DNA of 64,000 nt from an uncultured bacterium (GCA_949284985.1 CASDWY010000021.1:1-64000), one strand, 5' to 3'; positions 42,742-64,000 are shown, numbered from the stretch's first letter. Numbers and translations are program-made. Notes: generated from the letters alone by a model not told the origin.

Positions 42742-43809
42742 ATGTTAGAGCAAAAAAAAATAGGGATACCGAGGGCAATTTCATATTATAATAATTATCC
42801 GTTTTACTACGGTTTTTTTAGTGAGTTGGGCTTTGAGGTTATACTTTCTGATAAAACAACGACCGGTCTTATTAATAATGGGAGCGAGTGTGTGGTATCA
42901 GATACTTGTTTACCGATAAAAGTTTATGTAGGACATGTGCTTAATTTGTTGGATAAAGGCTGTGATACAATTTTTGTTCCATCTTTACAATCTACGGCGC
43001 ATAAGATAAATAATTGTAGTAAAGTTCGTGGGTTGCCAGAAATTATTAGAAATGTTGTAAATCGAAGATTTAATATGATAGAGCCAACTTTAGACAAAAC
43101 AGAGGGGATTGGAATAAAAGAGTTTTGTAAAGATATAGCAAACCAATTAAAAATATATGACAACGATATAATTAATCTTGCAATGAAAAAAGGCTGGCAA
43201 ATGTATGATAACTTTGTTCAGATGGCAAAATCAGGAATATCCCATCAAGAAGCAATGCAAAATGCAATATCAGGCAAGTTTAGTTTAAAAAATATAGATG
43301 TAGTAAAACCATTGTCTGTAGTAATTATGGGGCATGGATATAATCTTTTTGATGAAAGAATATCAATGAACATTCTTAAAAAGCTTGAAAAAATGGGTGT
43401 AAAAGTATATACAGGATTAAATGTATCCAGAGAGGAAGCAATGGATGCAATTCAAGATATTGGAGAAATTCAATATTGGGCAAATGAATTGGATCTAACT
43501 GGCGCTGCAGCATATTATATGCAAAAAAGAAAAGTGGATGGAATTATAGCTTTGTCGGCGTTTGGTTGTGGGCCTGACTCTTTGATGGTTGATGAAATTC
43601 AATATCACGCAAAAAATAAGAATATTCCAATGATTGTCTTAACAATAGACGAACATACAGGAGAAGCTGGTTTTATAACAAGATTAGAGGCTTTTGTGGA
43701 TATGTTGATTCGTAAAAAAAGGAAATTAATAGCTGAGAAGGCAAATTTAAAACATATGCCTGAAAAAATTAATCAAAATAAAGAGCAGGTATTTTTGACA
43801 AGAGCATAG
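42742..43809 (+). CDS. DUF2229-type protein related to 2-hydroxyacyl-CoA dehydratase activators
   Basis: 355 aa, of the DUF2229/CoA-activase-related group seen fused to or beside activators of 2-hydroxyacyl-CoA dehydratases. Family-like features: IGIPRAISYYNNYPFYYGFFSELGFEV at the start, C-containing ECVVSDTCLPIKVYVGH (candidate Fe-S ligands), SAFGCGPDS and the C-terminal DEHTGEAGFITRLEAFVDM. The ATP-binding activator (ASKHA) domain is absent, and no dehydratase subunit is in the window. It is the first gene of a tight four-gene run with a PHP protein, a second DUF2229-like protein and a radical SAM protein. Reaction unknown. Confidence 0.75.
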   Translation: MLEQKKIGIPRAISYYNNYPFYYGFFSELGFEVILSDKTTTGLINNGSECVVSDTCLPIKVYVGHVLNLLDKGCDTIFVPSLQSTAHKINNCSKVRGLPEIIRNVVNRRFNMIEPTLDKTEGIGIKEFCKDIANQLKIYDNDIINLAMKKGWQMYDNFVQMAKSGISHQEAMQNAISGKFSLKNIDVVKPLSVVIMGHGYNLFDERISMNILKKLEKMGVKVYTGLNVSREEAMDAIQDIGEIQYWANELDLTGAAAYYMQKRKVDGIIALSAFGCGPDSLMVDEIQYHAKNKNIPMIVLTIDEHTGEAGFITRLEAFVDMLIRKKRKLIAEKANLKHMPEKINQNKEQVFLTRA

Positions 43810-43813
43810 TATA

Positions 43814-44857
43814 ATGATGAATTTTGGGGATAAAAAAGGTTATAAATATTTGGGGGGAATTCATGTTCATTCAAAATATTCGGATGGAACAGGGGATATA
43901 TATGCAATTACGAGGGCAGCTAAAAAAGCAGGTTTGGATTGGATAATAGTTACTGATCATAACAATTTTGATATACAAGAAGGTATTATAAATGGTATAT
44001 ATGTAATTAGAGGTCTAGAAATATCTCCAGTTAACAGTAATCATTATCTGGCTTTGGGTATCGACAAAATAATTGATTATAACCAAGAACCGCAAAAATT
44101 TGTGGATGAAGTAAGAGAACAAGGTGGAGTAGGTTTTGCTGCACATCCTGATGAGTCAAATAATCGTAAAAATAAATATTCTCCTATAAAGTGGATGGAT
44201 AAAGCGGTTGTTCCTGATGGGATTGAGATTTGGAATTGGTTTTCGGTATGGGCTGATAATTATGTAGATAAAAATATTTTTGCGCAAGCATATGCTTTCT
44301 TTTTTAAGCACAAGTTGATTACTAAACCTCAAACAGAAACTTTATCTTGGTGGGATGGATTAAATAATAAATCAAACGAAATTATTCCTGCAATTGGAAG
44401 TATTGATGTTCATGCGTTAAAAATTGATAAGTATATTTTCCCTGTAACTATTTTCCCTTACAAGGATATGTTTAAAACAATAACCAATGTTATCACTTTA
44501 AAAAAAGAATTATCCAAAGACTTTTTAATTGCAAAAAAACAAATATTGGAAGCAATTAGGCTTGGAAACAATTTTATAGTAAACAGAAAAATGACAAAAG
44601 TCATTCCACAAGTTATGATCTCTAATTCTAAAGAAACTGTATATGCAGGAGAGTCTATAGAGCTTGATGAAGATACATATGTTCGTGTTAAGTTTGGCAA
44701 AGAATTTGAGGTAAGGTTAATTTGTAATGGTGAGGTCATATGGGAAAACAAAACAAAAGAGGCAGAAATACCGCTTTGTAAAAAGGGTAAATTTAGAGTA
44801 GAAGCGAAATTAAATAAGCTTGGATATGCATATTCAAATCCTATAGTTGTGAGGTAA
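43814..44857 (+). CDS. PHP-domain metal-dependent phosphoesterase-like protein
   Basis: 347 aa. PHP signatures: HVHSKYSDGTGD (H-x-H with following Asp, about 17-28), TDHNNFD, LEISPVNSNHY and AAHPDES, which together form a multinuclear metal site used to hydrolyse phosphate esters; SIDVHALK provides a later ligand pair. The last 90 residues are a beta-sandwich-like extension (IELDEDTYVRVKFGKEFEVRLICNGEVIWE). It sits 4 nt after the first DUF2229 gene. The substrate is unknown. Confidence 0.82.
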   Translation: MMNFGDKKGYKYLGGIHVHSKYSDGTGDIYAITRAAKKAGLDWIIVTDHNNFDIQEGIINGIYVIRGLEISPVNSNHYLALGIDKIIDYNQEPQKFVDEVREQGGVGFAAHPDESNNRKNKYSPIKWMDKAVVPDGIEIWNWFSVWADNYVDKNIFAQAYAFFFKHKLITKPQTETLSWWDGLNNKSNEIIPAIGSIDVHALKIDKYIFPVTIFPYKDMFKTITNVITLKKELSKDFLIAKKQILEAIRLGNNFIVNRKMTKVIPQVMISNSKETVYAGESIELDEDTYVRVKFGKEFEVRLICNGEVIWENKTKEAEIPLCKKGKFRVEAKLNKLGYAYSNPIVVR

Positions 44858-44869
44858 AAACTAAAGAAA

Positions 44870-46066
44870 ATGCAAGCTAAGGTGTCAAAGGAAATACAAT
44901 TGAATAAGTATTCACAAATGGATGACAATATAAAAGCAAAAGATAGGATTATTGCATGGCCTAGAATGGGAAGAATAGATATTCCATTGAAAGCACTTCT
45001 GTTAACCTTAGGAGCTAAAGTCGTTATTCCTCCAGCTAACAGTAAAGAGACATTAGAGTTGGGGGTTAAGAATAGTATTGAAGGAATTTGCTTGCCTTAT
45101 AAATTGAATTTAGCTAATTATATAATGGCATTGGAAAGCGGAGCAAATACGTTAATGATGTTTCAAGCTCCGGGGTCTTGTAGATTAGGGAATTATACAA
45201 AAATGGCACAGAAAACTCTTAAAAAGATGGGATATGAGTTTGATATGGTCATTTTTGATATGTATAAAAGTAAAATGAAACAGACACTTCAAGCTTTCTG
45301 GCATGTTACAAGATGTATAAACCCATTCAAATATTATAAAGCGTTTAGCTTAGGTTTTAACAAATTTTTTGCTATAGATGAAGCAGAAAAGCAAATGTTT
45401 TATTATAGACCCCGAGAAATACGTAAAGGTGAGGCAGAAAAATATTATAATAAATGGTTAAAAATTATTGATGAAACTAATACAATAATGGGTGCAAAAA
45501 CTCTTGTAAAAAAAATTAAAAAAGATTTTAAAAATATTGAAATAGATGGAAAAAAGAATGTGCCTGTAGTATACTTGTTAGGTGAATTTTTTGTATTATT
45601 AGATCCGTATACAAATCAAAATGTAGAGAAAGTACTTGGAGAAATGGGGATAGAAGTTCAAAGGCAAATTATGTTTAGCGGATGGTTAGAGCATGTTTTA
45701 AAACCTTCAATTTTTTATAATAAAGAATCGCACAGAGAAAGATGTGTTAGATATGCTAAAAAATACATGAAAAGGGCAATAGGAGGAGAATGTATAGAAA
45801 CAATAGGAGATACAGTATATGCAGCTCAAAACGGAGTAGATGGAGTTATTCATCTTATGCCGTTTTCGTGTATGCCGGAAATTGTTTCACAAAATATTTT
45901 GTCTAAAGTTTCAAAGGAAGAAGATATACCTGTTATAACGTTGGTTTTAGATGAACAGACAGGGAAAGCCGGTTATATAACAAGAATTGAGGCATTTGTA
46001 GATTTAGTGAAAAGGAAAAAGTATAAAAACCAAAATAAGAATTTGAGAGAAAGGACTACAGTTTAA
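44870..46066 (+). CDS. Second DUF2229-like CoA-activase-related protein
   Basis: 398 aa, homologous in plan to the gene at 42742: WPRMGRIDIPLKALLLTLGAKVV at the start, NSIEGICLPYKLNLANY with a central cysteine, QAPGSCRLGNY, ECIETIGDTVYAAQNGVDGVIHLMPFSCMPE and the matching tail LDEQTGKAGYITRIEAFVDL. Such proteins often occur as a pair (short plus long), so the two may form a heterodimer holding an Fe-S cluster between conserved cysteines. No Shine-Dalgarno sequence is evident; an alternative Met lies at 44918. It abuts the radical SAM gene with no gap. Confidence 0.73.
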   Translation: MQAKVSKEIQLNKYSQMDDNIKAKDRIIAWPRMGRIDIPLKALLLTLGAKVVIPPANSKETLELGVKNSIEGICLPYKLNLANYIMALESGANTLMMFQAPGSCRLGNYTKMAQKTLKKMGYEFDMVIFDMYKSKMKQTLQAFWHVTRCINPFKYYKAFSLGFNKFFAIDEAEKQMFYYRPREIRKGEAEKYYNKWLKIIDETNTIMGAKTLVKKIKKDFKNIEIDGKKNVPVVYLLGEFFVLLDPYTNQNVEKVLGEMGIEVQRQIMFSGWLEHVLKPSIFYNKESHRERCVRYAKKYMKRAIGGECIETIGDTVYAAQNGVDGVIHLMPFSCMPEIVSQNILSKVSKEEDIPVITLVLDEQTGKAGYITRIEAFVDLVKRKKYKNQNKNLRERTTV

Positions 46067-47122
46067 ATGATTAAGGAATCTCGTAATAAAATGACGTTAG
46101 ATCGTCTTAAATACTATAAGCATTTGGGTGGAGGAGCTATAGAATGTTTAATAAGCAGATTCTCTAAAACTCCAAAGCCATTATGTTTTTCGCTTATGGT
46201 TACAAGTCAATGTAATTGTAATTGTGATTTTTGTTTTTGGAAACATAAAAAAGAAAATGATGATATGTCATGTGAAGAAATTTGCAGATTATTAACAGAG
46301 GCAGGACAAATAGGTTATATGGACTCTATTTTGTGGGGTGGAGAACCTCTTTTGAGACAAGATTTTACTGAGATTTGTAAAGCTTCTCATGATGCCGGAC
46401 TTTATACAAAAATTGCCACTAATGGTTATTTTTTGGAAACAAATCCAGGTTTTGGGAAATACACTGATTTGATGTTCGTTTCGTTAGACGCTATAGGTAA
46501 GGCTCATGATGATATTAGACATATGCCTGGTATTTGTGATAAAGTTATGTCAGGAGTTGAGTATCATAAAATTCATTCTCCTAAGATGAGAATTTATGTT
46601 TGTTGTACAGTATCAACACAAACTAATTTTGAACAGATTAAAGAAGTTGCTCAATATTGTAAAGATGCAGATATTTTATTATATTTTACAGTCAATAAGG
46701 CAGCTTCAATACCGGAGGAAGCGCAAAATGTTGTAGAAACAGAGCTTGAAAACGAACAATTATCAGAAATGTTTATTAAGATTAAAGAGCTTAAAAAACA
46801 AGGTTATCCGATAAGAAATTCATATTATTTTATGGATTATATTATTAATAAGAAGACTTATTATGAATGTCATTGGCCTAGAATAGCCACAGTGATATAT
46901 TCAAATGGAGATATGCTGAGGTGCTATGATAGAAAGCCTTTTATAAGTGTAAAAGACAGACCATTGAAAGAGGTGATTAAGGATCCGTTATTTATAGAAA
47001 CAGTTAATAAATGTAAAGATTGTAAACTTGCATGTGTGGGGAACTATGCGCTTGATGCGTCAGGTCTATGGAAAATGGAATGGCCTGCGATAAAGTCATT
47101 AATGGAAATTGCTATAACTTAA
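46067..47122 (+). CDS. Radical SAM protein with C-terminal SPASM-like cysteines
   Basis: 351 aa. The SAM cluster motif CNCNCDFC (CxxxCxxC, with C at both x-flanks) is followed by WKHKKEND; GGEPLLR binds SAM, and LDAIGKAHDDIR is typical of the fold. The C-terminal part has C in ECHWPR, RCYDRKP and CKDCKLACVG, resembling a SPASM or twitch domain with an auxiliary Fe-S cluster. It begins one base after the preceding stop and is the last gene of the four-gene run; the exopolysaccharide export gene starts 10 nt later. The substrate is unknown; peptides and small metabolites are both known for this class. Confidence 0.85.
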   Translation: MIKESRNKMTLDRLKYYKHLGGGAIECLISRFSKTPKPLCFSLMVTSQCNCNCDFCFWKHKKENDDMSCEEICRLLTEAGQIGYMDSILWGGEPLLRQDFTEICKASHDAGLYTKIATNGYFLETNPGFGKYTDLMFVSLDAIGKAHDDIRHMPGICDKVMSGVEYHKIHSPKMRIYVCCTVSTQTNFEQIKEVAQYCKDADILLYFTVNKAASIPEEAQNVVETELENEQLSEMFIKIKELKKQGYPIRNSYYFMDYIINKKTYYECHWPRIATVIYSNGDMLRCYDRKPFISVKDRPLKEVIKDPLFIETVNKCKDCKLACVGNYALDASGLWKMEWPAIKSLMEIAIT

Positions 47123-47132
47123 GGAGAATGTA

Positions 47133-49625
47133 ATGAAAAAACATGTTGTATCGTTAATATTGTTGGCTTTTGTTTTTACGACATTGCCCACAGAAGCCAG
47201 GCGATTTGTTTCCCCTGTAGAAAAAGTAAAATTGTGGGCTGAAAAAACAGATCAACAAGTTACCCCTGAGTCTAATCTTTTATATACTGACGAAGTAGAA
47301 AAGTACCAAAAAGATACAGACGCATTTACAAGTAAATATAGAGCCGGAGAAAGAAGTTATAAAAGTTCTGATATAAGTACTATAGAAGAGATGTTTAACG
47401 GCAAAGATGTTGAAATAACAGGTACAGTATTACGGCAAGTTGGATATGATTTATTTAATGCCTCTTCAGCATCTGCATTATCAACTGCAGGGAAATATGA
47501 TAATAATTATAAGTTAAGCATAGGTGAAAAAATTACAGCGTATCTTCAAGGCGATTCTGTTGATGTAATGGCAATTTCAGGAGCATCATTGCTTAATCCT
47601 ATGACGAGCACTTCTGTTGATTCAAAAGGTAATGTCTTTATTCAAGGCATAGGCATGGTGCAAGCAGAAGGAAAAACTGTAGGAGAAGTTGAAAATGCTT
47701 TAAATAAATTGGCTTCTTCTAAATATAAAAGTTTAAAGGTTCATCTTAATGTTGCAACAGGACAAGAATTTGCAGTTTTTGTATTCGGACAGGTAAATAA
47801 ACCTGGTAAGGTTCTTGTAGGCAATAATTCAACTGTATTTGATGTTTTAAATATGGCAGGAGGAGTTAAAAAAACAGGAACTTTAAGAAATATCATATAT
47901 ACAGCAGGTAATTCAAAACCTAGAAATGTAGATTTATACAAAACTATTTTTTCTGGGGAGAATGACAATATTATTGTAAGACCAAATGATAAAATCTTTG
48001 TTAATAAAATTGGTAAAGTTGTAGCTATAAAAAATGGGGTTATGGAGCCTGGAATATATGAAATAAAAGATAAAGAAGATATTCAAAAGATAGTAAAATA
48101 TGCAGGCGGATTTACCCCAACTACCCAAATATCAGAGGTAACTTTGATTGGGTTTAATAAGGAGCAAAGCCAAAAAACTGCTCAAAATATCGAATGGAAT
48201 AAAGCAAAAAATATTGCATTAAATAGTGGTGATTCCATTGAATTTAGAGAGTTATACAACAATGTAGAAAATATTGTAACAATTCAAGGAAATATAAAGC
48301 ATCCTGCAACGTATGCTTATACAAATGGAATGAGATTATCAAATATTTTAAGAAACGAAAATGAACTTTTAGAGGAGACATTTTTAAATCAAGCAGTAAT
48401 TAGGAGAGTTTCAGGCAAGGACAATACAGTAGAGACAATACCAGTCTTTTTAAAGGACTTCTTTAATGGTATTACTGATCCTTTATTACAACCAAGAGAT
48501 GTAATAACAATTTATAAGAATACGAATTCTCAATTTGTAGATATTTATGGATGTATTAATCAGCCTAAGCATCTTGCATATATTGATGGTTTAACACTGG
48601 ATGATGTAATGACAGACATTCGTTTTATGGAAACAAATGTAAAAAGAGATGTTCCTGAAGAAGAAAAAGTTTCATATAAGAAAAAATCTAATAATGATGT
48701 AATATTGACGGCAGGAACCAGTAATGACAACAGGCTTATTCCGGCAGAAAATGTTGCGGTAGAAATTACTAATGAAAACGGCGATACGACATTATATTAT
48801 ATGTATGATATAATGATTAATTCGGATAGAATTAAAGAAATATCTATTCATCCAAATGACAAAATCTTTTTCCGAACACTGAGAGATAATGAAGCAATTA
48901 AATATGTAAAAATTTCCGGTTTTGTGGAACGACCAGGCGTTTATACAAGTATTGCTGGCAAAAGGCTTATTGATATGATTGAAATGGCTGGGGGATTGAC
49001 TAAAGATGCTGATTTAAGGGGAATAGTTTACAAAAGGTCGAATTTGCAAGGTAAACAAGTAAGTATAGCTCGTAAGAATAATGACAGAGATATTAGATTG
49101 TTAGAGGGCAGAGTTGCTAGTGCATACAAAGCAACGGAAACTGATCAACAAAATAAAGTAGAAATGATATCAATGTTAAAAAATGAAGAGAAAGATTTGC
49201 AAAAGAGATATAATGGACAAATTGCTTTAAATATTAAGAGCAATGATTTGAAAAAAATAAAAGATATAGATAACATTGAAGTTCAAGATGGAGATGATAT
49301 ATATGTACCTCGAATGAATAACCAAGTAAGTGTTATGGGAGAAGTATATAACGAACAATCCTTTGCATTTAGACGTGGAAGTAATGTTGCTACATATATA
49401 AAAGAAGTTGGTGGTTATACACCTAATGCAAATAAGTTTAGAATGTATAAAGTTAGTGTAAATGGTAGAGCAGAAAAGGTGGGGAAATATAGCAGTGTTG
49501 ATCCCGGAGATGTAATTGTTGTACCGCGTAAAATTGCAGGAAATGATTGGTTAACGCCGGTATGTGATACATTGAGAGGAATAGCTGCGCTTGTAACTAG
49601 TGCATTTGTTGTTACGAAAATATAA
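47133..49625 (+). CDS. Polysaccharide export protein (Wza-like, multi-SLBB)
   Basis: 830-aa envelope protein for exporting exopolysaccharide through the outer membrane. Signal peptide MKKHVVSLILLAFVFTTLPTEA. A Poly_export domain (about 125-210, KLSIGEKITAYLQGDS, VFIQGIGMVQAEGKTVGEVENAL) is followed by about six SLBB domains (VFGQVNKPGKVLV, MEPGIYEIKDKED, IQGNIKHPATYAYT, DIYGCINQPKHLAYI, ISGFVERPGVYTSI, VMGEVYNEQSFAFR). The C-terminus carries a hydrophobic segment (DTLRGIAALVTSAFVV), the likely membrane insertion. It is larger than E. coli Wza (about 380 aa). AAGGAG precedes the start. Confidence 0.9.
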   Translation: MKKHVVSLILLAFVFTTLPTEARRFVSPVEKVKLWAEKTDQQVTPESNLLYTDEVEKYQKDTDAFTSKYRAGERSYKSSDISTIEEMFNGKDVEITGTVLRQVGYDLFNASSASALSTAGKYDNNYKLSIGEKITAYLQGDSVDVMAISGASLLNPMTSTSVDSKGNVFIQGIGMVQAEGKTVGEVENALNKLASSKYKSLKVHLNVATGQEFAVFVFGQVNKPGKVLVGNNSTVFDVLNMAGGVKKTGTLRNIIYTAGNSKPRNVDLYKTIFSGENDNIIVRPNDKIFVNKIGKVVAIKNGVMEPGIYEIKDKEDIQKIVKYAGGFTPTTQISEVTLIGFNKEQSQKTAQNIEWNKAKNIALNSGDSIEFRELYNNVENIVTIQGNIKHPATYAYTNGMRLSNILRNENELLEETFLNQAVIRRVSGKDNTVETIPVFLKDFFNGITDPLLQPRDVITIYKNTNSQFVDIYGCINQPKHLAYIDGLTLDDVMTDIRFMETNVKRDVPEEEKVSYKKKSNNDVILTAGTSNDNRLIPAENVAVEITNENGDTTLYYMYDIMINSDRIKEISIHPNDKIFFRTLRDNEAIKYVKISGFVERPGVYTSIAGKRLIDMIEMAGGLTKDADLRGIVYKRSNLQGKQVSIARKNNDRDIRLLEGRVASAYKATETDQQNKVEMISMLKNEEKDLQKRYNGQIALNIKSNDLKKIKDIDNIEVQDGDDIYVPRMNNQVSVMGEVYNEQSFAFRRGSNVATYIKEVGGYTPNANKFRMYKVSVNGRAEKVGKYSSVDPGDVIVVPRKIAGNDWLTPVCDTLRGIAALVTSAFVVTKI

Positions 49626-49636
49626 GGAATTAATAA

Positions 49637-50563
49637 ATGAAAGTACTCATAACAGGTGGATTTGGTTTTATTGGTTCCCATGTAGCAGATGTATTGCTAG
49701 AAAATCATATAGATGTTGTTATTATAGATAATTTATCTAGTGGTTCATTAGATAATATCCCTAAATTTAATATGTCGAATTTTTATAAATTTGATATAGA
49801 AAAAGATGATATAGAATTTATCTTTGAAAAAGAAAAACCGGATTATTGTATTCATCTTGCGGCGCAAACAAGTGTTGCATATTCATTGAAGCACGCAAAA
49901 GAAGATGCAAAGATGAACATTATTAGTTCATTAAAAGTATTAGATTTGTGCAAAAAATATAATATTAAGAAGATTATTACAGCCTCATCAGCAGCGGTTT
50001 ATGGTGTACCCAAGTATTTGCCAATAGATGAGCTGCATCCAACAGAGCCTATATCTAATTATGGTTTGTCAAAACTTACTATGGAAAAATATATTGAGCT
50101 ATCAAATATACCATATGTAATATTTAGATTTGCCAATGTTTATGGACCAAGACAAGTTAGTTCAAAAGAAAGTGGCGTTATTGCTATATTTAATGACAAG
50201 ATGAGTATTAATGAAGAAATTAATATATATGGTGATGGAAATCAAATTAGAGATTTTGTTTATGTTGGAGATATAGCGAATATTTGTTATTATGCGCTCA
50301 AAAATGAAGTAGTAGATGAAATAATAAATGTTTCTTGTAACAGAGGTGTTAGTGTAAACGAATTGTATACCAAAATGGAACAAATTTATAACTATTCCAA
50401 ACAACCTGTATATATGCCTGAAAGAGTTGGAGATATAAGAGATAGTGTATTGGCTAATAGAAAAGCTCGCAACTTGTTTGAAAATTTTACAAATGTTCCA
50501 TTGGAACAAGGGTTATTAAAACTTAAGAATGGAGACTGTAAAGGAGCGTCAATTAAATGCTAA
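49637..50563 (+). CDS. NAD-dependent sugar-nucleotide epimerase
   Basis: 308-aa extended short-chain dehydrogenase: GGFGFIGSHVADVL, LAAQTSVAYSLKHA, SSAAVYGVPKYLP, catalytic SNYGLSKLTME (YxxxK) and FRFANVYGPRQ. It is closest in plan to UDP-glucose or UDP-N-acetylglucosamine 4-epimerases of polysaccharide loci; the exact sugar cannot be told. It overlaps the phosphoglycosyltransferase gene by 7 nt, so the product sugar is likely the one loaded first or used in the repeat unit. Confidence 0.88.
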   Translation: MKVLITGGFGFIGSHVADVLLENHIDVVIIDNLSSGSLDNIPKFNMSNFYKFDIEKDDIEFIFEKEKPDYCIHLAAQTSVAYSLKHAKEDAKMNIISSLKVLDLCKKYNIKKIITASSAAVYGVPKYLPIDELHPTEPISNYGLSKLTMEKYIELSNIPYVIFRFANVYGPRQVSSKESGVIAIFNDKMSINEEINIYGDGNQIRDFVYVGDIANICYYALKNEVVDEIINVSCNRGVSVNELYTKMEQIYNYSKQPVYMPERVGDIRDSVLANRKARNLFENFTNVPLEQGLLKLKNGDCKGASIKC

Positions 50564-51930
50564 GAACGTTATCTCGTTCAGTGATTATAATGTTTATGTT
50601 TGATATAGTTGTTTTTAGCTTAATTAGCTTTTTAAACTGTCAAATCTTTAATATAGGTGGTGTCGCTCAGCTTGTTGCGGTTGGATTAACTACCTTAATT
50701 GGAATTGTTGTCTTGTATTTAAAGGCAAATTATAAAATTAGAGAATTTAATATTAATAGAAAAAATATTTATTTATTGCTTGAGGGGGTTGTAATGGCGC
50801 ATATTCCTGCTGCCATTATTTTATTCTTTTTATTAACGGCAAAGCAAAATATATTATTTGTCATTACAAATATTGTTATAATATTTGTAATTTTAGAACT
50901 TTATAGATTGCTTTTTCATTTATATTTATTCAGATTTAAGCCTAAGAAAAATATATTGATAGTAGGAAGCGATAAAAGAGCGAAGCTTATAGCTGATGAA
51001 ATTATGAATAAAAAAGCATTAATGATGAAAGTAGCTGGCTTTATTCAAGATCCGCAAAATGATGAAGAAATGATTTTGGATACAAAAATTCCAATCTACG
51101 GAAATCTTGATGATTTAAGCAAAATTATTAAAGAAAGCAACATAAATATAGTTATTGTTGCCATTCAAAGACGAATGGAAGAAAACATACTTACAAGATT
51201 AAAAACAGACATTCCAAGACGAGTTAAGGTTTATAAGTTGCAAGATTTTTATGAATTAGTGACAGGAAAATATTATATAGACAGAACATCAATAAACGAA
51301 TTATTTTATACATATATGAATAGACGTTCATTGGGATATGATTTTTGTAAGCGAATATTTGATATTGTTGCTGCGTTAATAATATTATTGATAACTTGTC
51401 CTATATTAATATATATAGGAATAAGGGTTAAATGCACAGATGGAGGAGCAGCAATATATACTCAAAACAGAGTTGGACAAGATGGAAAGATTTTTAAAGC
51501 ATATAAGTTAAGAACAATGTATTTGAATGATTACGTTCCAACGTCGGAAAATCTGTCTAATGCGGATAAGCAAGATAGTGATGATAGAGTAATACCGTTT
51601 TGTAAATTTGTAAGAAAAGCGCGTTTTGATGAAATACCGCAAATGATTAATATCTTAAAAGGAGAGATGTCAATTGTAGGGCCCAGAACCGAGTGGGACG
51701 ATTTAGTGAAAGTATATTCGGAGCAAATACCATATCATAATTGCAGGCACTGGGTTAAAACAGGTTGGACAGGATGGGCGCAGATTAATCAAGGGCATTT
51801 GTTTTCGAGTGATGCAGAAGCAGAAAAATTGCAATATGATTTATATTATTTAAAACACAGAAATATATTGTGGGAGATATTTATTCTTGTAAAAGCTGTG
51901 TTTTTGGCATTAGGGGGACGACATGGCTAG
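50557..51930 (+). CDS. Polyprenyl-phosphate phosphoglycosyltransferase (WcaJ/WbaP type)
   Basis: 457-aa initiating enzyme that transfers a sugar phosphate from UDP-sugar to undecaprenyl phosphate. Four N-terminal membrane helices (about 8-125), a Rossmann-like cytosolic domain (KNILIVGSDKRAKLIADEI), then a reentrant membrane helix (IFDIVAALIILLITCPILI) and the catalytic domain with QNRVGQDGKIFKAYKLRTM, ARFDEIPQMINILKGEMSIVGPRTE. It is flanked by overlaps on both sides (7-8 nt), so the locus is one translation chain. Confidence 0.94.
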   Translation: MLRTLSRSVIIMFMFDIVVFSLISFLNCQIFNIGGVAQLVAVGLTTLIGIVVLYLKANYKIREFNINRKNIYLLLEGVVMAHIPAAIILFFLLTAKQNILFVITNIVIIFVILELYRLLFHLYLFRFKPKKNILIVGSDKRAKLIADEIMNKKALMMKVAGFIQDPQNDEEMILDTKIPIYGNLDDLSKIIKESNINIVIVAIQRRMEENILTRLKTDIPRRVKVYKLQDFYELVTGKYYIDRTSINELFYTYMNRRSLGYDFCKRIFDIVAALIILLITCPILIYIGIRVKCTDGGAAIYTQNRVGQDGKIFKAYKLRTMYLNDYVPTSENLSNADKQDSDDRVIPFCKFVRKARFDEIPQMINILKGEMSIVGPRTEWDDLVKVYSEQIPYHNCRHWVKTGWTGWAQINQGHLFSSDAEAEKLQYDLYYLKHRNILWEIFILVKAVFLALGGRHG

Positions 51931-52585
51931 TATAAAATTTTGGGATAATAGGAATTTTAATAGAAGATATCCAAGGGATTATGGATTTATAAGAACTATG
52001 TATATAACACTGTTTTTATACTTAGTTGTATGGCCTGCAGGATTGTTGTTTTATGGTACAAGGATAAAACGAGAAACGGGTCTGGAACGTGGAAAACGAT
52101 ATATTTTTACTTCAAATCATCAATCATATATAGATGCACCATTAATTTCAATGGTAGCAAACAGACCTGTTGCTTATATGGCAAAAGAGGAGCTATTTAG
52201 TCATAAAAGCCAGTTAATTCAATTTTTGGTAATAAGCTTAGGTTCTTTTGCAGTAAATAGAGAAAAGCCGGAAAAAGCGACAATGAAAACGATAATTGAT
52301 ATAATTAAGCATACAAAATGGTCAATAGGAATATTTCCCGAAGGTCAGCAGGCTAAGGATACTCATAATTTTGATGAGGTTAAGGGTGGATTTATAAGTA
52401 TAGCGAAGATGGCGAAAATGGATATAGTACCGATAGCAATTTGTGGTTTTAGCGGATATACAATAATACCATTTAGAAAGAAGATGAAGTTAAAGATGGG
52501 GGAACCTATATCGTATAAATTGTCAGAAGATGAGATTTTGCAGAAGTGGAAAGACTTTATGAACAAAGAGGTTAAGGATGTGTAA
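51923..52585 (+). CDS. PlsC-like 1-acylglycerol-3-phosphate acyltransferase
   Basis: 220 aa. An N-terminal membrane segment (about 26-46) is followed by acyltransferase motifs NHQSYID (HxxxxD), VNREKPEKA, FPEGQQ and VPIAICG, as in PlsC. PlsC makes phosphatidic acid, but a copy embedded in a polysaccharide locus by 8-nt overlaps on both sides may instead acylate a lipid carrier or glycan-linked lipid. It differs from the DUF374 protein at 5021. Confidence 0.88.
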   Translation: MASIKFWDNRNFNRRYPRDYGFIRTMYITLFLYLVVWPAGLLFYGTRIKRETGLERGKRYIFTSNHQSYIDAPLISMVANRPVAYMAKEELFSHKSQLIQFLVISLGSFAVNREKPEKATMKTIIDIIKHTKWSIGIFPEGQQAKDTHNFDEVKGGFISIAKMAKMDIVPIAICGFSGYTIIPFRKKMKLKMGEPISYKLSEDEILQKWKDFMNKEVKDV

Positions 52586-53669
52586 GAAGAGAATTCTGTA
52601 TATAACAACATGGTCTGATTTAGGTGGTGTAGCAATTTATCTTTTGGAATTGATAAAGGGGCTTGGTTCCGAAATTGAACCTTATTTTATAATGAATTCG
52701 AAAGGTTTTTTATCTGATGAATTGGAAAAATTGGGATTAAAAAATAATATATTTTTTGTTCCTATGACAAATAGTATTTTAGACATAAAAACGCATATTA
52801 ACTCAAATTTACAGACATTAAGTATTATAGATAAAGTGAAACCGGATATAATTCACTGTAATTCTATGACAGGAGGTATAGTAGGTCGTATTTGCGGTTT
52901 TATAAAAAAAGTTCCAGTTATCTTTACTGCACATGGGTGGACTTTTTCTGGAGGATATTCTAAACCTTTAATTGCTTTTTATAAAATATTAGAATTATTT
53001 TTAGCTTTATTAACTAAAAAAATAATTTGTGTATCTGAACACGATAGGCAAATAGCATTAAAAGTTATGCCTTTTTTTAAAGATAAGTTGATAATGATAC
53101 ACAATGGAATTTCCGATATTCCAACTGAATTTTGCAAAAGGAATTTTTCTGAAAATGAACTAAAAGTTGTTATGATTACAAGGTTTTCTTGGCCTAAAAA
53201 TCCAAATGATCTTATACTTGCCGTAAAAGAGCTTAACGATGAGGGTTTAAATATTAAATTGGATTTGTTTGGCTATGGTAAAAAGCAAATAGAAGTTGAA
53301 AATTTAATTAAAGAATGTAATTGTCCTAATATTAAGCTAAAAGGCATCGCAAAAAATCCGGAATTAATATTAAAAAATTATGATGTATATGCATTAATAA
53401 GTGATAAAGAAGGTCTGCCGATAGGTATAATTGAAGCAATGCGAGCTGGTTTGCCGTTACTTATTTCTGATGTCGGGGGATGTCGTGAACTTATAAAAGA
53501 TAATGGCTATTTGGTTGAAAAAAGAAATTTAAAAGATTTAAAAGCAAAAATAAGGCTTTTATACGAACAACTTAGTAATTTACCGGTTTTAGGACAAAAT
53601 AGTAGACATCTTTTTGAAATAGAATTTACATCAAAAAATATGGTAGGAAAAACATTTGCAGTATTGTAG
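52578..53669 (+). CDS. GT4-family glycosyltransferase
   Basis: 363 aa, GT-B fold. N-terminal domain with YITTWSDLGGVAIYLLELIKGL and HCNSMTGGIVGRI, linker IHNGISDIP, C-terminal donor domain with TRFSWPKNPNDLI, LFGYGKKQIEVE and the donor-binding SDKEGLPIGIIEAMRAGLPLLISDVGGCREL (EX7E motif). It probably adds one sugar of the repeat unit on the cytosolic side. The start codon overlaps the acyltransferase stop. Confidence 0.92.
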   Translation: MCKKRILYITTWSDLGGVAIYLLELIKGLGSEIEPYFIMNSKGFLSDELEKLGLKNNIFFVPMTNSILDIKTHINSNLQTLSIIDKVKPDIIHCNSMTGGIVGRICGFIKKVPVIFTAHGWTFSGGYSKPLIAFYKILELFLALLTKKIICVSEHDRQIALKVMPFFKDKLIMIHNGISDIPTEFCKRNFSENELKVVMITRFSWPKNPNDLILAVKELNDEGLNIKLDLFGYGKKQIEVENLIKECNCPNIKLKGIAKNPELILKNYDVYALISDKEGLPIGIIEAMRAGLPLLISDVGGCRELIKDNGYLVEKRNLKDLKAKIRLLYEQLSNLPVLGQNSRHLFEIEFTSKNMVGKTFAVL

Positions 53670-53674
53670 GAACT

Positions 53675-55054
53675 ATGAATTTTATATTATCAGGTAGTAA
53701 AGTTTTATATTTTATATTAATATGTAGTCTTGTTACTCTAGTGGCAATTCTGTTTTTCTTTGAGTTTGGTATGTTGGAAAGAGTTTTATTGCCTTTTTTT
53801 ATAAGTTTATTCTTTTCGTTGGGGATATTTTTTATTTTAAATCTTGTTTGTAAAGATAAATTTTGTTCAAAAATTTATCTTGTATCAGTATTACTCCATT
53901 TTATATTCATTTTATTTTGGCAACTTTTTAAATATCATATGCTTGGATATCAGTTACCTACTGAAAATACTTTTAAAGCATTTATTGTAGATAATGATGG
54001 GGGACTTTATCATTTATTAGGAGTCTATATATCTCAGCATTATACTATTGAAACCCTGATGGAGAAATTTGCTGGAGGTTGGTTTCCTAAGCTTGTTGGT
54101 ACGATATATTATGTGCTTGGTATTAATCCATTTCTTGTATCTTGCATAAATGCAATAATATCTGGTTTTACTGCACTGCTTTTGTTTTTAATAGGAAAAT
54201 TTGTTTTACAAAATAGGGATTATGCTAAAGTATTTTCATTCTTATCCATATTAAATTTTGCGCATATTATCAATACCTCAACTATGATAAGAGATAATTA
54301 TATAGTTTTATTTATGTATTTATCGATTTTACTGTCTTATTATTTTTATAAAACAAGAACTATTTTATCTTTGTGTTTAACAGCTCTAAGTTTATATTTG
54401 CTGTATTTATTGAGACCTTATGCTGCAATAGTAATATTATTAGCAATAATAGTGACGTTTGTTTTTGTAAATTTGAAAGTAAAGACTCAGAATAATACGT
54501 TAAAAGTTAATAAATTATCACTTTTATTGATTTTATGTTTACCTTTAATAGTAGCAATATTTGTTTTTATACTGATAAAGTTTTCTGAATTATTTAAAGT
54601 CATATCAGTAGAAGATTTGATAGATATTAGAGAGACTGCTTATCAGACAGGTGCAGGAGAAATTCCAATAGACTTTGGTGCATTATATAGTAAATTTTTC
54701 TTATTACCATTTATTGTTGGGTATCTATATTTGTTTTTTGCTCCATTTCCTTGGGAGTGGATCTATCCAAGAAGAATGATTTATGTGCCTGATATGTTGA
54801 TTTTATACTGTTTTTTGCCGTCATTTTTTAAAAATATAAAAAAAGTGTTGATAGAACGAAACTATTTGTTAGTAGTGTCTTTATTCTCAATAATATTTAT
54901 GTTTAGTATATATTGTATAACACTAGGGAGCACTGGGGCAATTCATCGTTTAAGAGGACCTTTTATTCCGATGATTTATCTTATAGCTTTTTATAGACCA
55001 AACCAATTTTTAAGTAAAATAATTAGGCAAATTTCGAACTGGAGAATTATATGA
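53675..55054 (+). CDS. Polytopic membrane protein, Wzy-polymerase candidate
   Basis: 459 aa with about eleven hydrophobic helices and a longer hydrophilic loop around residues 300-345 (SVEDLIDIRETAYQTGAGEIP). The locus has a flippase and chain-length regulator, so a Wzy-type polymerase is expected; this is the only multi-helix protein of suitable plan. Sequence motifs are not diagnostic, so a membrane glycosyltransferase remains possible (a conserved Asp-rich DNDGGLYHLLG stretch lies after helix 3). It is visibly AT-rich. Confidence 0.6.
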   Translation: MNFILSGSKVLYFILICSLVTLVAILFFFEFGMLERVLLPFFISLFFSLGIFFILNLVCKDKFCSKIYLVSVLLHFIFILFWQLFKYHMLGYQLPTENTFKAFIVDNDGGLYHLLGVYISQHYTIETLMEKFAGGWFPKLVGTIYYVLGINPFLVSCINAIISGFTALLLFLIGKFVLQNRDYAKVFSFLSILNFAHIINTSTMIRDNYIVLFMYLSILLSYYFYKTRTILSLCLTALSLYLLYLLRPYAAIVILLAIIVTFVFVNLKVKTQNNTLKVNKLSLLLILCLPLIVAIFVFILIKFSELFKVISVEDLIDIRETAYQTGAGEIPIDFGALYSKFFLLPFIVGYLYLFFAPFPWEWIYPRRMIYVPDMLILYCFLPSFFKNIKKVLIERNYLLVVSLFSIIFMFSIYCITLGSTGAIHRLRGPFIPMIYLIAFYRPNQFLSKIIRQISNWRII

Positions 55055-55962
55055 GTAATAAAATAAAAAAAGTAATTTATTATTGCTGGTTTGGCGGTGA
55101 AAAATCTCAAGAAGTTTTAAATTGTATAAATAATTGGAAAGAAAAACTTCCTGATTATGAAATAATTGAAATTAATGAGTATAACAAAGAATTATTTAAT
55201 GTAGAAGAAGAATGCCAAAATAATTTGTGGTTTAAAACAGTTTATGAGAATAAATTATGGGCATTTGTATCTGATTATGCAAGATTAAAAGTTCTTTACG
55301 AAAATGGAGGGGTATATTTTGACACAGATATAACAGTGGAAAAAGATATTACTGAATTATTAGAAAAAAATAAATTGGTATTAGGGTGGGAGAATCCAAT
55401 TGCCTTAAATATTGCGGTAGGAGTTTTTATCACAAGAAATAAAAATTTTCTTTTAAAACAGATGTTAGAGTTTTATGATGAACAAATTTGGAAATCGAAA
55501 ATTTATACAATACCTCAAATAGTAACGTATGTGATAAAGAAAAATTATAATTTGTTACCTGCTAATCAAATAACTGAAAATGACGATATTTTAATCTTAC
55601 CGCAAGAGTACTTCTATCCAATACCTATTGGATTGAAAGAAAAAGGTGATTTCATAACTGAGAATACATATACAATTCATTGGTGGGATGCTAGTTGGAC
55701 AAAATCTAATGTGGATTATTTCTTAAAAAATAAACATCGAATTCCTTTAGAAAAACTATTAAAATATTGTTTCGAAAAAAGAGTTATTTTTGATAATTTA
55801 TTTTTACAAATAGAAAAGTATTGTCAGTTATATAAAATAAAAGTAAATTTTTACTGGTTTTTTAGATTCAAGTATAAATCAGATTATAAAAATAATAGAT
55901 GGTTAGTCCTATTTATATTTGGAGTACCATTTAAAATATGGAAAATGTATAAGGGTAATTAA
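55051..55962 (+). CDS. GT32-like glycosyltransferase
   Basis: 303 aa of the group of capsular glycosyltransferases with a DxD sugar-binding motif. IKKVIYYCWFGGEKSQEV near the N-terminus, then SDYARLKVLYENGGVYFDTDITVEKDI, where DTD binds the nucleotide sugar through Mn, and TYTIHWWDASW. The start overlaps the polymerase candidate by 4 nt. The C-terminus is basic and aromatic, possibly membrane-touching. Confidence 0.87.
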   Translation: MSNKIKKVIYYCWFGGEKSQEVLNCINNWKEKLPDYEIIEINEYNKELFNVEEECQNNLWFKTVYENKLWAFVSDYARLKVLYENGGVYFDTDITVEKDITELLEKNKLVLGWENPIALNIAVGVFITRNKNFLLKQMLEFYDEQIWKSKIYTIPQIVTYVIKKNYNLLPANQITENDDILILPQEYFYPIPIGLKEKGDFITENTYTIHWWDASWTKSNVDYFLKNKHRIPLEKLLKYCFEKRVIFDNLFLQIEKYCQLYKIKVNFYWFFRFKYKSDYKNNRWLVLFIFGVPFKIWKMYKGN

Positions 55963-55977
55963 AATGACAATTTAAAA

Positions 55978-56088
55978 ATGATTGAAAGTGAAAGAATTAT
56001 ACCCAAATTATATTTCAACAATTTTGATTTACGTAATAATGTATTAAAGAGTAATAATGTTAAAAAATATAAAAAACTTATGATATAA
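55978..56088 (+). other. Possible 36-codon ORF or gene remnant in a 159-nt gap
   Basis: The only sizeable gap in the polysaccharide locus (55963-56121) contains an open frame beginning MIESERIIPKLYF with no ribosome-binding site. It may be a decayed gene fragment or chance. A TATAAT at about 56083-56088 lies before the next gene and could be an internal promoter. Confidence 0.25.
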
Positions 56089-56121
56089 TAAAGAATAATT
56101 AAATAATGAGGCATATTTAGA

Positions 56122-57036
56122 ATGAATGAGCAATTTTCTGTTGTTTTAACACTGTATCGACGCCCCTATAACTTGATAGGACAAGTTGAAGCTATATTAG
56201 ATCAAACAATAAGACCTTCTGAAATATTATTGTTTCAAGATAAAGTAGAAAATGAAATAATAGAGATACCTAGTTCTATAAAAGATAAGTTTGATAATAT
56301 TAAAATAGCAACAAAAAATGTTGGAGTTTGGGGAAGGTTTGATTTTGCAAGAAGTGCAAAAAATGAACTTATTTTCCTTTTTGATGATGATACTATTCCT
56401 GGAAATAAGTGGTTTGAAAATTGTCTTAACGAAATGAAAAAAGAAGAAGCCCTTTATGGAACGAATGGTGTTTTAATGGATAGACCTAAAGATTATCCAT
56501 TAAAAAATAGTTTTCAACAAATAGGATGGAATGGTCCGAATTTGCACACAGTTCCTGTTGATTTTGTAGGGCATTGCTGGTTTTTCAAAAAAAAGTGGCT
56601 TGATTATTTATTTGAAAATACAGAAAATATGCAGGCATATAAAATATGTGCAGAAGATATGACTTTTTCATATAAATTACAACAGTATGGTATAAAAACG
56701 CTTGTTCCTCCTCATCCAATGTCAGAGTTACAAATGTGGGGTAATTGTATATTGAATGATACAAATTCTCACACAGATAAAAATGGATTATCTGGAAATA
56801 AAGAAAATTTGAAAAAATATAATCTTGCAATGAATGAATTACTAAAAAGTGGCTTTATCCCATTAGTTTCATTTAATTCATTTAAAATTAAAAGATTGAA
56901 CTCCTTAATCTTATTGTTGAAAAGAATAATTTGGGTAGTAAAATTGTTTTCTAAAAATAAACAAAAACTTCAAAAAATAAAAATTGTATATATTTCTAAA
57001 ATTATAAATAGATTTTATAACTATGATAAAGGATAA
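56122..57036 (+). CDS. GT2-like glycosyltransferase
   Basis: 304 aa, GT-A fold. VVLTLYRRPYNLIGQVEAILDQTIRPSEILLFQD at the N-terminus, the metal/nucleotide-binding FLFDDDTIPGNKW (DDD), GTNGVLM and AEDMTFSYKLQQYG, which places the likely catalytic base region. A weak TATAAT upstream and the preceding gap suggest a second transcription start inside the locus. Its stop is separated by one base from the next start. Confidence 0.85.
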   Translation: MNEQFSVVLTLYRRPYNLIGQVEAILDQTIRPSEILLFQDKVENEIIEIPSSIKDKFDNIKIATKNVGVWGRFDFARSAKNELIFLFDDDTIPGNKWFENCLNEMKKEEALYGTNGVLMDRPKDYPLKNSFQQIGWNGPNLHTVPVDFVGHCWFFKKKWLDYLFENTENMQAYKICAEDMTFSYKLQQYGIKTLVPPHPMSELQMWGNCILNDTNSHTDKNGLSGNKENLKKYNLAMNELLKSGFIPLVSFNSFKIKRLNSLILLLKRIIWVVKLFSKNKQKLQKIKIVYISKIINRFYNYDKG

Positions 57037-57037
57037 A

Positions 57038-58279
57038 ATGGAAAATAAAGAAAATAAAATCTTAATATTCAATTGTTGGTGGGAAAGAACAAATTATGGG
57101 GCCGTATTAACAGCATATGCGCTTCAAACATTTATATCAGAAACTTTAAAATATGATAATAAATTAATTTATAATCCCCCACAGTATAATAAATATTTTA
57201 AAAAGTTTAAAGCTTTTGATCTTTTTAAAGATAAATATTTAAAATGTACATCTAAAATAACAACACTAAAACAATTATTTGATTTAAACAGTAATTATAA
57301 TATCTTTATAACTGGTTCTGATCAGGTATTTAGATACCCTTTTTTAAAGGATATAAATAATGGATATAATCAATATCTTCTGGATTTTGCAAGTATAAAT
57401 TCTAAAAAAATTTCAATTGCTGCAAGTTTTGGCATAAAAAAAATTGAATTTTTAAGTGAAACTACTCCGCTTATCAGAGAAAAGATGAAACGTTCATTAA
57501 AAACATTTGATTTTATTTCTGTTAGAGAAAAAGATGGCGTTGAAATATGCAATGATTTATTTAATATTAATGCAAAATGGATTATTGACCCTGTTTTCTG
57601 GCTAGAACTAGATCGTTACAATGCAATTTCTCAAGAATCAGATTTTGATTGCTCAGACAAAATAGTGTCTTATTTTTTTCATAAAACAAAAAAAGATAAA
57701 GCTTGTTTCAAAAATATAGAAAAAAAATATGGAATGAAAATTATTGAATTGTATCTGTCTGATAGAAAAATAGAAGATTGGTTAAAGGCAATTAAAAGTT
57801 CGAAACTTTTTATAACAAATTCTTTCCATGGTGTATGTTTTGCTATATTATTTAACAAACCTTTTATATGTGTAGTAAATTCTAAATCCGGTATTTCAAG
57901 GTATGAATCATTATTTGAAATGCTTGGTATAAAAAATCAATGTATATATTCTTTATCTGAAATCTTAGAAAAAGATTGTATCTTTAAAGTCAATTATAAT
58001 GAAGTTAATAAAAATATTAATACTGAAGTCAAAAAAGGGCAAAATTTCTTAATAGAAGCAATAGATAGCAAAATAGAATGTTCTGGACAAAAAATTGATA
58101 ACAAAATTAAAATTTTAGAAAATCAAATTTGTGAGTTAGAAGATAAATTAACATTAAAAAAACTTTTTATAAAAACACTCTGGGAAATATGGGTTAATAT
58201 TTTTCATTGTTTTCCTTCAATTATACAAGATATTATTCGAATCATAAGGAGAAATGTTGTTAAAAATAGAAAAAAATGA
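57038..58279 (+). CDS. Polysaccharide pyruvyl transferase family protein
   Basis: About 413 aa from the ATG at 57038, which has AAAGGA with 5-nt spacing; an upstream ATG at 57023 would overlap the previous gene. The family adds pyruvate ketals to exopolysaccharide or teichoic sugars, or uses PEP in related ways. FNCWWERTNYGAVLTAYALQTFI, TGSDQVFRYPF, SVREKDGVEICND, NSFHGVCFAILFNKPF are hallmarks. It is followed by the F420-dehydrogenase-beta-like gene, a pairing often seen in capsule loci. The C-terminal 70 residues are a coiled coil and basic helix. Confidence 0.88.
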   Translation: MENKENKILIFNCWWERTNYGAVLTAYALQTFISETLKYDNKLIYNPPQYNKYFKKFKAFDLFKDKYLKCTSKITTLKQLFDLNSNYNIFITGSDQVFRYPFLKDINNGYNQYLLDFASINSKKISIAASFGIKKIEFLSETTPLIREKMKRSLKTFDFISVREKDGVEICNDLFNINAKWIIDPVFWLELDRYNAISQESDFDCSDKIVSYFFHKTKKDKACFKNIEKKYGMKIIELYLSDRKIEDWLKAIKSSKLFITNSFHGVCFAILFNKPFICVVNSKSGISRYESLFEMLGIKNQCIYSLSEILEKDCIFKVNYNEVNKNINTEVKKGQNFLIEAIDSKIECSGQKIDNKIKILENQICELEDKLTLKKLFIKTLWEIWVNIFHCFPSIIQDIIRIIRRNVVKNRKK

Positions 58280-59447
58280 ACTATGTACTGGATGCGGAGC
58301 ATGCAAAAATATCTGTAAACAAAATGCTATATCTATTATTGAGGATGAAGAAGGCTTTCTAAAACCTTTAGTAGATAATGATAAATGCATTAATTGTTCT
58401 TTATGCGATAATATTTGTCCAATATTTAATTATAAATCATCTAACACAAAAAATCCCAAATCTTTTTTGTTTATGAATAAAGATAAAATTGAAAAGGAAA
58501 AATCTTCAAGTGGTGCGTTTTTTCCCTTGATTGCTAAATATATAATAGAGCAGAACGGTATTGTTTTCGGGGTAATATGGGATGAGAATATAAAGGCAAT
58601 TCAAGCGAGTGCTCAAAATTTTGATGAATTAGAAAAAATGAGAGGTTCAAAATATGTTCAGGCTGACACAAAGTCCACATTCAAAGAGGTTCAATATTTT
58701 TTAGATAATGGAAAGGTTGTTTTATATTCGGGGACGCCCTGCCAAATAGCAGGGCTTAAATCCTTTTTAAAAAAAGATTATCAAAATCTAATAACAATTG
58801 ATTTAATTTGTCATGGTGTACCATCTAGAAAAATATTTGAATATTATAAAAAGATGTTTTTAAAGCAAAAAAGAGATAATACAAAAATCATAAATATAAA
58901 TATGCGCCCAAAACCTGTGAAATTTGAATATATTCATTATTGGAAGATAGAGTCATTATTAAAAACTTATAAAATATCTATGCAAAAGAATCCTTTTATT
59001 TTGACATTTTTATATAATTTAAATTTAAATAAATCATGTATAAATTGTAGATTTAACTGTTTGCCTAGAGTTGGTGATATAACAATAGGAGATTTTAATG
59101 GTGTAGAATATTTCGAAAATAATTTAAAAGTCGAGGATGGAGTTTCTGTTATTCTTTTAAATAATAAAAAAGGTGAGCGTTTTTATGAAGAAATATCAAA
59201 ACAACAGATATCAAAAGAAGTCCCTTTCGAAAAGGTTGTAAGATATAATTTAAATATAGTAGAGGCAACAAGGACACATGAGAAACGAGATGCTTTTTTT
59301 AAAAATTTTTTATTAAAAGAGCAGAGCATGGAATATTTTGCAAAAAGATATATTAAAATATATCCATTTGAAATTATATATATTTATAAAAGATTACCAA
59401 ATTTTGTGAAAAAGATTATTAAAAAAATATTAGCTAAAAATGATTAA
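58254..59447 (+). CDS. F420H2-dehydrogenase beta subunit-like Fe-S protein
   Basis: 397 aa. An N-terminal double ferredoxin motif (CTGCGACKNIC and CINCSLCDNIC) is followed by an FrhB/FdhB-like domain (SSSGAFFPLIAKY, GSKYVQADTKSTF, YSGTPCQIAGLKSFL, DLICHGVPSRKIFEYY) and a further C-rich patch (CINCRFNCLPRVGDITIGDF). In methanogens the domain binds flavin and passes electrons to F420; in polysaccharide loci its role is unclear, perhaps a flavin-dependent reductive sugar modification. It overlaps the pyruvyl transferase gene by 26 nt. AAGGAG lies very close to the ATG; a TTG one codon later is also possible. Confidence 0.87.
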   Translation: MLLKIEKNELCTGCGACKNICKQNAISIIEDEEGFLKPLVDNDKCINCSLCDNICPIFNYKSSNTKNPKSFLFMNKDKIEKEKSSSGAFFPLIAKYIIEQNGIVFGVIWDENIKAIQASAQNFDELEKMRGSKYVQADTKSTFKEVQYFLDNGKVVLYSGTPCQIAGLKSFLKKDYQNLITIDLICHGVPSRKIFEYYKKMFLKQKRDNTKIININMRPKPVKFEYIHYWKIESLLKTYKISMQKNPFILTFLYNLNLNKSCINCRFNCLPRVGDITIGDFNGVEYFENNLKVEDGVSVILLNNKKGERFYEEISKQQISKEVPFEKVVRYNLNIVEATRTHEKRDAFFKNFLLKEQSMEYFAKRYIKIYPFEIIYIYKRLPNFVKKIIKKILAKND

Positions 59448-60648: not shown

Positions 60649-60706
60649 TCTTATTGATATACTGATAATTTTATTTTACAATCAACTAGTAAAAAAGGAG
60701 AGATTA

Positions 60707-63593: not shown

Positions 63594-63594
63594 C

Positions 63595-64000
63595 ATGAAA
63601 AAAATTGTAGCTGCTTTTACGTTTTTTGTAATTTATACTTTTGTTGTAAATACTTGTCCCGAAGTTACTGCTTGTGATAAGTCATTTTTGCTCTTTTTTC
63701 AAGGTATATTAGCAGGATTACCAATAGCTATTCCATTATTGATGGATGAAATTTTGTACGCTACTATGATTATTGTGCCTTATTTAATCGGTGGTTTCTA
63801 TCTGTTAAAAATAAGAAAAATTAAAGATTTATTTTTATTGTTTTTTATTCCATTAATTTGTTTTTCTTTAAATTCTGTATTTAAGGAGATTATCCAAAGG
63901 CCAAGACCACCGTTTGACTTACAACAAGTTATTAAATTAACCAGCTTTAGCTATACGTCTACTCATAGTTTGGTTATGTTTTGCTTGTGGGGTATATGTG
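63595..64000 (+). CDS. PAP2-family phosphatase, cut by the window edge
   Basis: The first 135 codons of a membrane phosphatase: MKKIVAAFTFF at the start, about four hydrophobic helices, then the PAP2 signature KEIIQRPRPP (KxxxxxxRP) and the second motif YTSTHS, where His acts in catalysis. The third motif lies beyond the window. Candidates for its role are undecaprenyl-pyrophosphate or lipid phosphatase activity, which would recycle the carrier freed by polysaccharide synthesis. It starts 1 nt after the radical SAM stop. Confidence 0.82.
   Translation, partial: MKKIVAAFTFFVIYTFVVNTCPEVTACDKSFLLFFQGILAGLPIAIPLLMDEILYATMIIVPYLIGGFYLLKIRKIKDLFLLFFIPLICFSLNSVFKEIIQRPRPPFDLQQVIKLTSFSYTSTHSLVMFCLWGIC

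Follow-up and report, generated by a model that had tools for sequence, protein, structure and literature searches.

A Gastranaerophilales gene cassette joining a putative split PlsA/Ger-like reductase to radical SAM, lipid and polysaccharide export genes

In the window, that is, the whole 64,000-nt stretch of DNA that was analysed, a compact operon for two DUF2229 proteins (A1 and B1), a PHP-domain protein and a radical SAM enzyme (rSAM1) was found to belong to a larger cassette of Gastranaerophilales. To judge by gene content and homology, an unusual envelope lipid or lipid anchor is the probable product of this cassette. Our best explanation, to which we give about an even chance, is that a duplicated, split PlsA-like reductase shares the activator which the family's core gene set provides, and that it makes a lipid or lipid anchor with a modification, possibly an ether link, for capsule-type export. 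The initial annotation had proposed an undescribed Fe-S operon of four gene families that travel together and are tied to an envelope or exopolysaccharide locus, and this was supported. It had also suggested an envelope or glycan modification as the product; the tie to the envelope stood, while a lipid anchor is now favoured over a glycan. DUF2229 itself was named in almost no paper of the literature searched.

Structure and conservation of the cassette

The four closely packed genes described initially were recovered as open reading frames on the + strand: A1 (42742..43809, 355 aa), a DUF2229 and HGD-D-like reductase subunit of Red1 type with Cys56, Cys92 and Cys276; the PHP-domain metallohydrolase (43814..44857, 347 aa), which is CehA/McbA-like and keeps its likely metal ligands; B1 (44870..46066, 398 aa), a Red2-type reductase subunit of the shorter DUF2229/HGD-D-like form with Cys74, Cys104 and Cys334; and rSAM1 (46067..47122, 351 aa), a radical SAM enzyme with the motif C49-x3-C53-x2-C56. 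The intergenic gaps are 4, 12 and 0 nt, and both sequence tails said to be shared by the DUF2229 proteins were found in A1 and B1. The reported run-on into an exopolysaccharide export gene was confirmed, since a Wza-like export protein with several SLBB domains, a conserved core member, starts 10 nt after rSAM1 (47133..49625). Further genes on the same strand are an NDP-sugar epimerase and an undecaprenyl-phosphate-type sugar transferase, with which a variable sugar-gene part begins (49637..51930), a PlsC-like acyltransferase (PF01553; 51923..52585), and a variable middle part of glycosyltransferases, pyruvyl transferase, FrhB-like protein, flippase and Wzz (52578..62062). They are followed by rSAM2, a 506-aa SPASM radical SAM enzyme that co-occurs with A1 (62073..63593), and a PAP2 phosphatase (63565..64000), which is cut by the window end, its reading frame extending to C21:64209. 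A YegS/DAGK lipid kinase lies after PAP2, beyond the window (C21:64209-65063).

Upstream of A1, a tRNA-Met (42477-42552) was the only Rfam family detected in the 5 kb searched, and promoter and terminator scans gave no more matches than shuffled sequence. Just upstream of the tRNA, two putative lpxI/lpxB-like genes were recognized by reading (40408-42347), and lipid A genes thus seem to adjoin the cassette. Inside the sugar-gene part, the FrhB/FdhB-like Fe-S protein (58254-59447) adjoins the polysaccharide pyruvyl transferase.

When the four families were looked for side by side in relatives, the order A1-PHP-B1-rSAM1-exporter was kept with few exceptions in 20 rSAM1-bearing genomes of the family and in 80 loci from named genomes. 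The linkage of A1-PHP-B1 is more than chance, because the same order was met again in about 74 contigs of other genomes (Gastranaerophilales loci) and because A1 and PHP co-occur without exception in 19 of the 78 family genomes (19/19). The same complete coincidence was found for rSAM2 and the exporter (19/19), and A1, PHP, rSAM2 and exporter were all present in 18 of the 20 genomes with any of them, the exceptions being G185, with A1 and PHP only, and the incomplete G181. Fisher tests gave about 1e-15 or lower, values that only rank the associations, as the genomes are not independent. The search for rSAM1 covered a partly different genome sample; in the 26 genomes common to both, its presence agreed fully with that of A1 (11 with, 15 without). 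In G010 and G022, A1-PHP and rSAM1 lie on different contigs and both are retained, and in L106, L130, L133 and L134 other genes follow B1 despite continuing sequence, which is a statement at the locus level only. In L036, L093 and L098 the block of rSAM1 and exporter is locally inverted with respect to A1-PHP-B1.

More than four genes make up the conserved unit, which extends past the right edge of the window. The self-contained four-gene system first proposed was therefore rejected as incomplete: there are at least eight genes, to which the SLBB exporter, rSAM2, PAP2 and the lipid kinase belong too. The last three were found downstream of the exporter in many loci, PAP2 and the kinase adjoining also in the window's own genome, and a PlsC-like gene was found in 14 other loci, directly after the exporter in 12 of them.

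The PHP alignment, with two peptide patterns, was used to scan 84,980 species, and the best 80 of 108 matches were examined. All of these were consistent with Gastranaerophilales/Melainabacteria, some being titled only 'uncultured bacterium', and no cassette outside that group was seen among them; the weakest seven of the 80 were without the cassette. Two metagenome-assembled genomes titled 'uncultured Acinetobacter sp.' (L097, L116) bear the Gastranaerophilales cassette, and their labels are probably wrong.

Capsule loci are often exchanged between genera, and the cassette, too, seems to have been exchanged in this way, because identities of A1 and rSAM1 were discordant with that of A2, the A-type protein of a second pair. 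Compared with the window's genome, A2 was 81% and A1 71% identical in G179 of the same genus, and A2 65%, A1 72% and rSAM1 91% in G086 of another genus, with L091 taken as G179 and L103 as G086 because their contig coordinates and lengths agreed. Rates of conservation also differed within the cassette: rSAM1 (272 of 351 positions invariant), rSAM2 (375/506) and B1 (219/398) were far more conserved than PHP (73/347).

The A1/B1 pair and its activator

Pfam and NCBIfam searches assigned DUF2229 (E 7e-51) and a C-terminal HGD-D domain to A1, and DUF2229 (3e-8) and HGD-D (2e-7) to B1, with HGD-D above cut-off in both. The operon had been described as one with no known pathway, but the pair does have known kin: A1 and B1 represent, as separate proteins, the reductase half that PlsA/Ger-like proteins carry in fused form. 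In the fused proteins of Listeria and Haliovirga (1449-1475 aa), the ASKHA protein of the window's genome matches two domains at the N-terminus. The third domain is matched by A1 (HMM 3e-24 and 2e-28) and the fourth by B1 (5e-16 and 1e-14), which is the A-then-B order of PlsA/Ger-type proteins. PlsA has been described with two activation domains, Act1 and Act2, and two reduction/dehydration domains, Red1 and Red2 (PMC12838417). The Listeria protein was used as a putative stand-in for PlsA because PlsA/PlsR orthologues and plasmalogens have been reported there (PMC9702350). A 1282-aa fused protein of Paraclostridium also matched A (2e-33), and cysteines are lost from its B half.

Three candidate cluster cysteines per subunit (A1 56/92/276, B1 74/104/334) were conserved across the cassettes and kept in the Listeria and Haliovirga fused proteins, and those of B1 were invariant save one gapped row at 104 in the cassette alignment. 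A B1 homologue with a small deletion across this otherwise invariant Cys104 region was noted at L070:2461-3627. Each subunit thus has the cysteine ligands of the BCR/HAD superfamily and a predicted [4Fe-4S] cluster. The fold of this superfamily was likewise indicated by the HGD-D domains and by the A1 model (medium confidence, pLDDT 72), whose best 14 PDB matches were all BCR/HAD enzymes (benzoyl-CoA reductase, 2-hydroxyacyl-CoA dehydratase and double-cubane enzymes; TM-score by query 0.37-0.53). ATPase-driven electron transfer would be expected in common with benzoyl-CoA reductase, 2-hydroxyacyl-CoA dehydratase and DCCP, which share fold and cysteine pattern with A1/B1 but are very distant in sequence.

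The ATPase activator had been reported as absent. None lies in the operon, but a search of the same genome located one copy at C29:210389-211390, its single TIGR00241-type ASKHA ATPase (acyl-CoA dehydratase activase), and a missing activator was rejected. The gene was found in 75 of the 78 family genomes, including 68 of the 68 good ones, always as a single copy. It is unlinked to the second pair, whose genes A2 (C29:48415-49485) and B2 (C24:5248-6408) are also apart from each other. A DUF2229 gene of A type was present in 78 of 78 family genomes searched; the family core includes A2 and the activator, and A1 and PHP are accessory (19/78). From the near-universal presence of A2 and activator, the cassette pair was read as accessory and the core set as its only obvious activator source. 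In PlsA/Ger-type proteins the activation domain is fused to or encoded with the reductase, which is not so at this operon, and no fused activation domain was seen in the DUF2229 A frames listed for the family (about 435 aa or shorter). In the tree, the A1 proteins formed one clade (100/100 support) that groups with A2 proteins of the same order, and for this reason A1 most likely arose by duplication within the Gastranaerophilales lineage, the placement of the clade relative to single A2 branches being insecure. Separately, a very divergent BadF/ASKHA-type ATPase (PF01869, 243 aa) that overlaps a 243-aa partner by 4 nt was observed beside a glycosyltransferase (G000:C29 65026-68490, L008); it is possibly an alternative activator or a second, unrelated activator pair.

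In Monoglobus (Bacillota) a single operon encodes A and B as stand-alone proteins together with the activator; there A and B are 34% identical to A1 and B1 and the activator is 50% identical to the ASKHA protein of the window's genome. The initial annotation had allowed for an ordinary dehydratase accessory with its partner genes nearby in other genomes. Such neighbours do exist for the A/B/activator trio, as in Monoglobus, but not for the cassette: PHP, radical SAM and exporter genes are missing there, whereas the window copy has no adjoining activator.

PHP hydrolase and radical SAM enzymes

Domain searches agreed with the initial assignment of a PHP protein and of a radical SAM protein with C-terminal cysteines. 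The PHP domain was nearest to CehA/McbA metallohydrolases, and the likely metal ligands H17, H19, D24, H49, E69, H111, D198 and H200 were invariant. A CpsB-type PHP tyrosine phosphatase of capsule loci was unsupported, as the CpsB model gave no match and the best matches were CehA/McbA and generic PHP. PHP paralogues about 40-46% identical were observed outside the cassette, mostly in environmental Melainabacteria (L139-L145), where their neighbours by reading were an HTH-like protein, a conserved 138-aa protein or a deoC-like aldolase.

rSAM1 has a cysteine-rich, twitch/SPASM-like C-terminal part with five more invariant cysteines. It is distantly related to the PTO1314 and HpnH families, its match to the HpnH model (2e-12) being far below the model cut-off and that to DUF3463, a domain of the hopanoid enzyme HpnH, weak and sub-threshold. 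rSAM2 was 81-97% identical across 13 genera. Distant rSAM2 homologues (33-35% identity over 80-86%) were seen on plasmids of Escherichia albertii and Klebsiella pneumoniae (L057:2254-3633 and L058:9911-11212) with no DUF2229 in the annotated neighbourhood; plasmid and PHROG searches yielded distant homologues only. Within the window, the gaps of 0 and 10 nt around rSAM1 and of 10 nt before rSAM2 leave no room at these places for the small precursor gene of a peptide-maturing radical SAM system.

Candidate product and alternative explanations

In the mechanism that we favour, A1 and B1 would pair as a heterodimer, a low-potential Fe-S reductase that belongs to the BCR/HAD superfamily and is of the split PlsA/Ger-like type. 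Its low-potential electrons would come, with consumption of ATP, from the single ASKHA ATPase encoded elsewhere, presumably shared with the core A2/B2 pair. The most likely substrate would be a glycerolipid or lipid anchor with an acyl ester, which the products of the linked genes (PlsC acyltransferase, PAP2 phosphatase and lipid kinase) would make or recycle and which would serve the Wza-like export locus. Reduction of the carbonyl may give an ether, a vinyl ether or an otherwise deoxygenated product. PHP may cleave an ester or phosphate of this molecule by hydrolysis, and both radical SAM enzymes may add radical modifications.

A lipid or lipid anchor was favoured mainly because the common core lacks sugar genes. 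This shared core consists of redox, radical, lipid and export genes, and sugar genes are optional at the site between exporter and rSAM2, to which this reading applies, since the two genes are adjacent or parted only by PlsC in several loci. Eight core genes were contiguous without sugar genes in L079, L083, L084, L086 and L115, where exporter and rSAM2 are adjacent, and only a PlsC-like gene lay between them in L082, L095, L097, L099, L105, L107 and L122; in L082, L095 and L105 the core was contiguous with the lipid genes and PlsC. Against the lipid reading, PHP, rSAM1 and rSAM2 have no close match to characterised lipid enzymes, PAP2 and the lipid kinase could equally recycle polyprenyl phosphate, and PlsA and Ger are indistinguishable by sequence. 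Ether formation by A1/B1 is suggested by family membership. PlsA homologues that lack an activation domain are widespread, and no role has been demonstrated for them (PMC13274423).

We consider it unlikely, yet worth weighing, that A1/B1 act on a sugar- or polyprenyl-linked exopolysaccharide substrate to give a deoxygenated or reduced glycan, with PAP2 and the lipid kinase merely recycling undecaprenyl phosphate. The cassette does flank capsule-type genes (sugar transferase, glycosyltransferases, Wzz, flippase) and has the exporter in its core, and it resembles Wza/Wzz capsule export loci in its conserved flanks, variable sugar-gene centre and SLBB exporter; its flanks, in contrast, bear Fe-S redox, radical SAM and lipid genes. 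At least eight loci, moreover, run from exporter to rSAM2 either directly or by way of PlsC, sugar genes being absent from the interval, and to our knowledge no BCR/HAD enzyme acts on sugars.

It is hardly probable that A1/B1 and the activator supply rSAM1 and rSAM2 with low-potential electrons instead of being a catalyst with its own organic substrate. The place of rSAM1 in the operon and of rSAM2 in the cassette would suit such a role, as would the very-low-potential electrons moved by BCR/HAD-type reductases like DCCP, a fold match of A1. However, core A2 and activator occur in genomes without rSAM1 and rSAM2, and ordinary flavodoxin or ferredoxin is enough for most radical SAM enzymes.

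Equally doubtful are membrane-spanning ether lipids, for which A1/B1 would do the work of Ger, from ester to alkyl ether, and rSAM2 or rSAM1 that of Mss, the tail-to-tail coupling, although a PlsA/Ger-like reductase plus a chain-coupling Mss is the route proposed for such bacterial lipids (PMC13274423, PMC11868695). rSAM2 matched no Tes structure by sequence at E 0.01, nor did Tes appear in the best 50 fold matches of its poor model, so a Tes-like rSAM2 found no support, and the match of rSAM1 to Tes was restricted to the generic radical SAM core. An Mss/Tes identity of rSAM1 or rSAM2 was thus not supported, Tes only having been compared.

That the pair acts on CoA thioesters, as an ordinary 2-hydroxyacyl-CoA dehydratase or its accessory, is a reading for which the HGD-D matches, the BCR/HAD fold and the Monoglobus-type trio speak. 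It is very improbable and was not favoured, as the cassette has no acyl-CoA enzymes or CoA pathway genes and A1 is far nearer to fused PlsA-like proteins (about 1e-33) than to solved dehydratases (E 0.3).

The preferred lipid or lipid-anchor reductase is closest to the PlsA/PlsR plasmalogen synthase (Clostridium perfringens; fused in Listeria and Enterococcus), with which it shares the two reductase domains in order, three cysteines per subunit and an ASKHA-type activator available in the genome. It differs in being split into two stand-alone subunits, in an operon without an activator gene, and in its setting amid genes for PHP, rSAM1, rSAM2 and an SLBB exporter. Ger has the same PlsA-like reductase architecture in its catalytic part, but validated Ger proteins bear two fused activation domains (PMC13274423), which A1/B1 lack. 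More specifically, and tentatively, this activator-less duplicated reductase, the two radical SAM enzymes and the PHP hydrolase might produce a new lipid anchor with an ether or carbon-carbon modification, attached to the capsule and exported along with it in gut Gastranaerophilales. An activator-less PlsA-type pair in a strictly co-inherited cassette with lipid, radical SAM and exporter genes makes the substrate class testable. If the lipid reading is true, oxygen-independent ether-lipid chemistry would extend to non-photosynthetic gut relatives of cyanobacteria, and its link to a surface polymer would be new.
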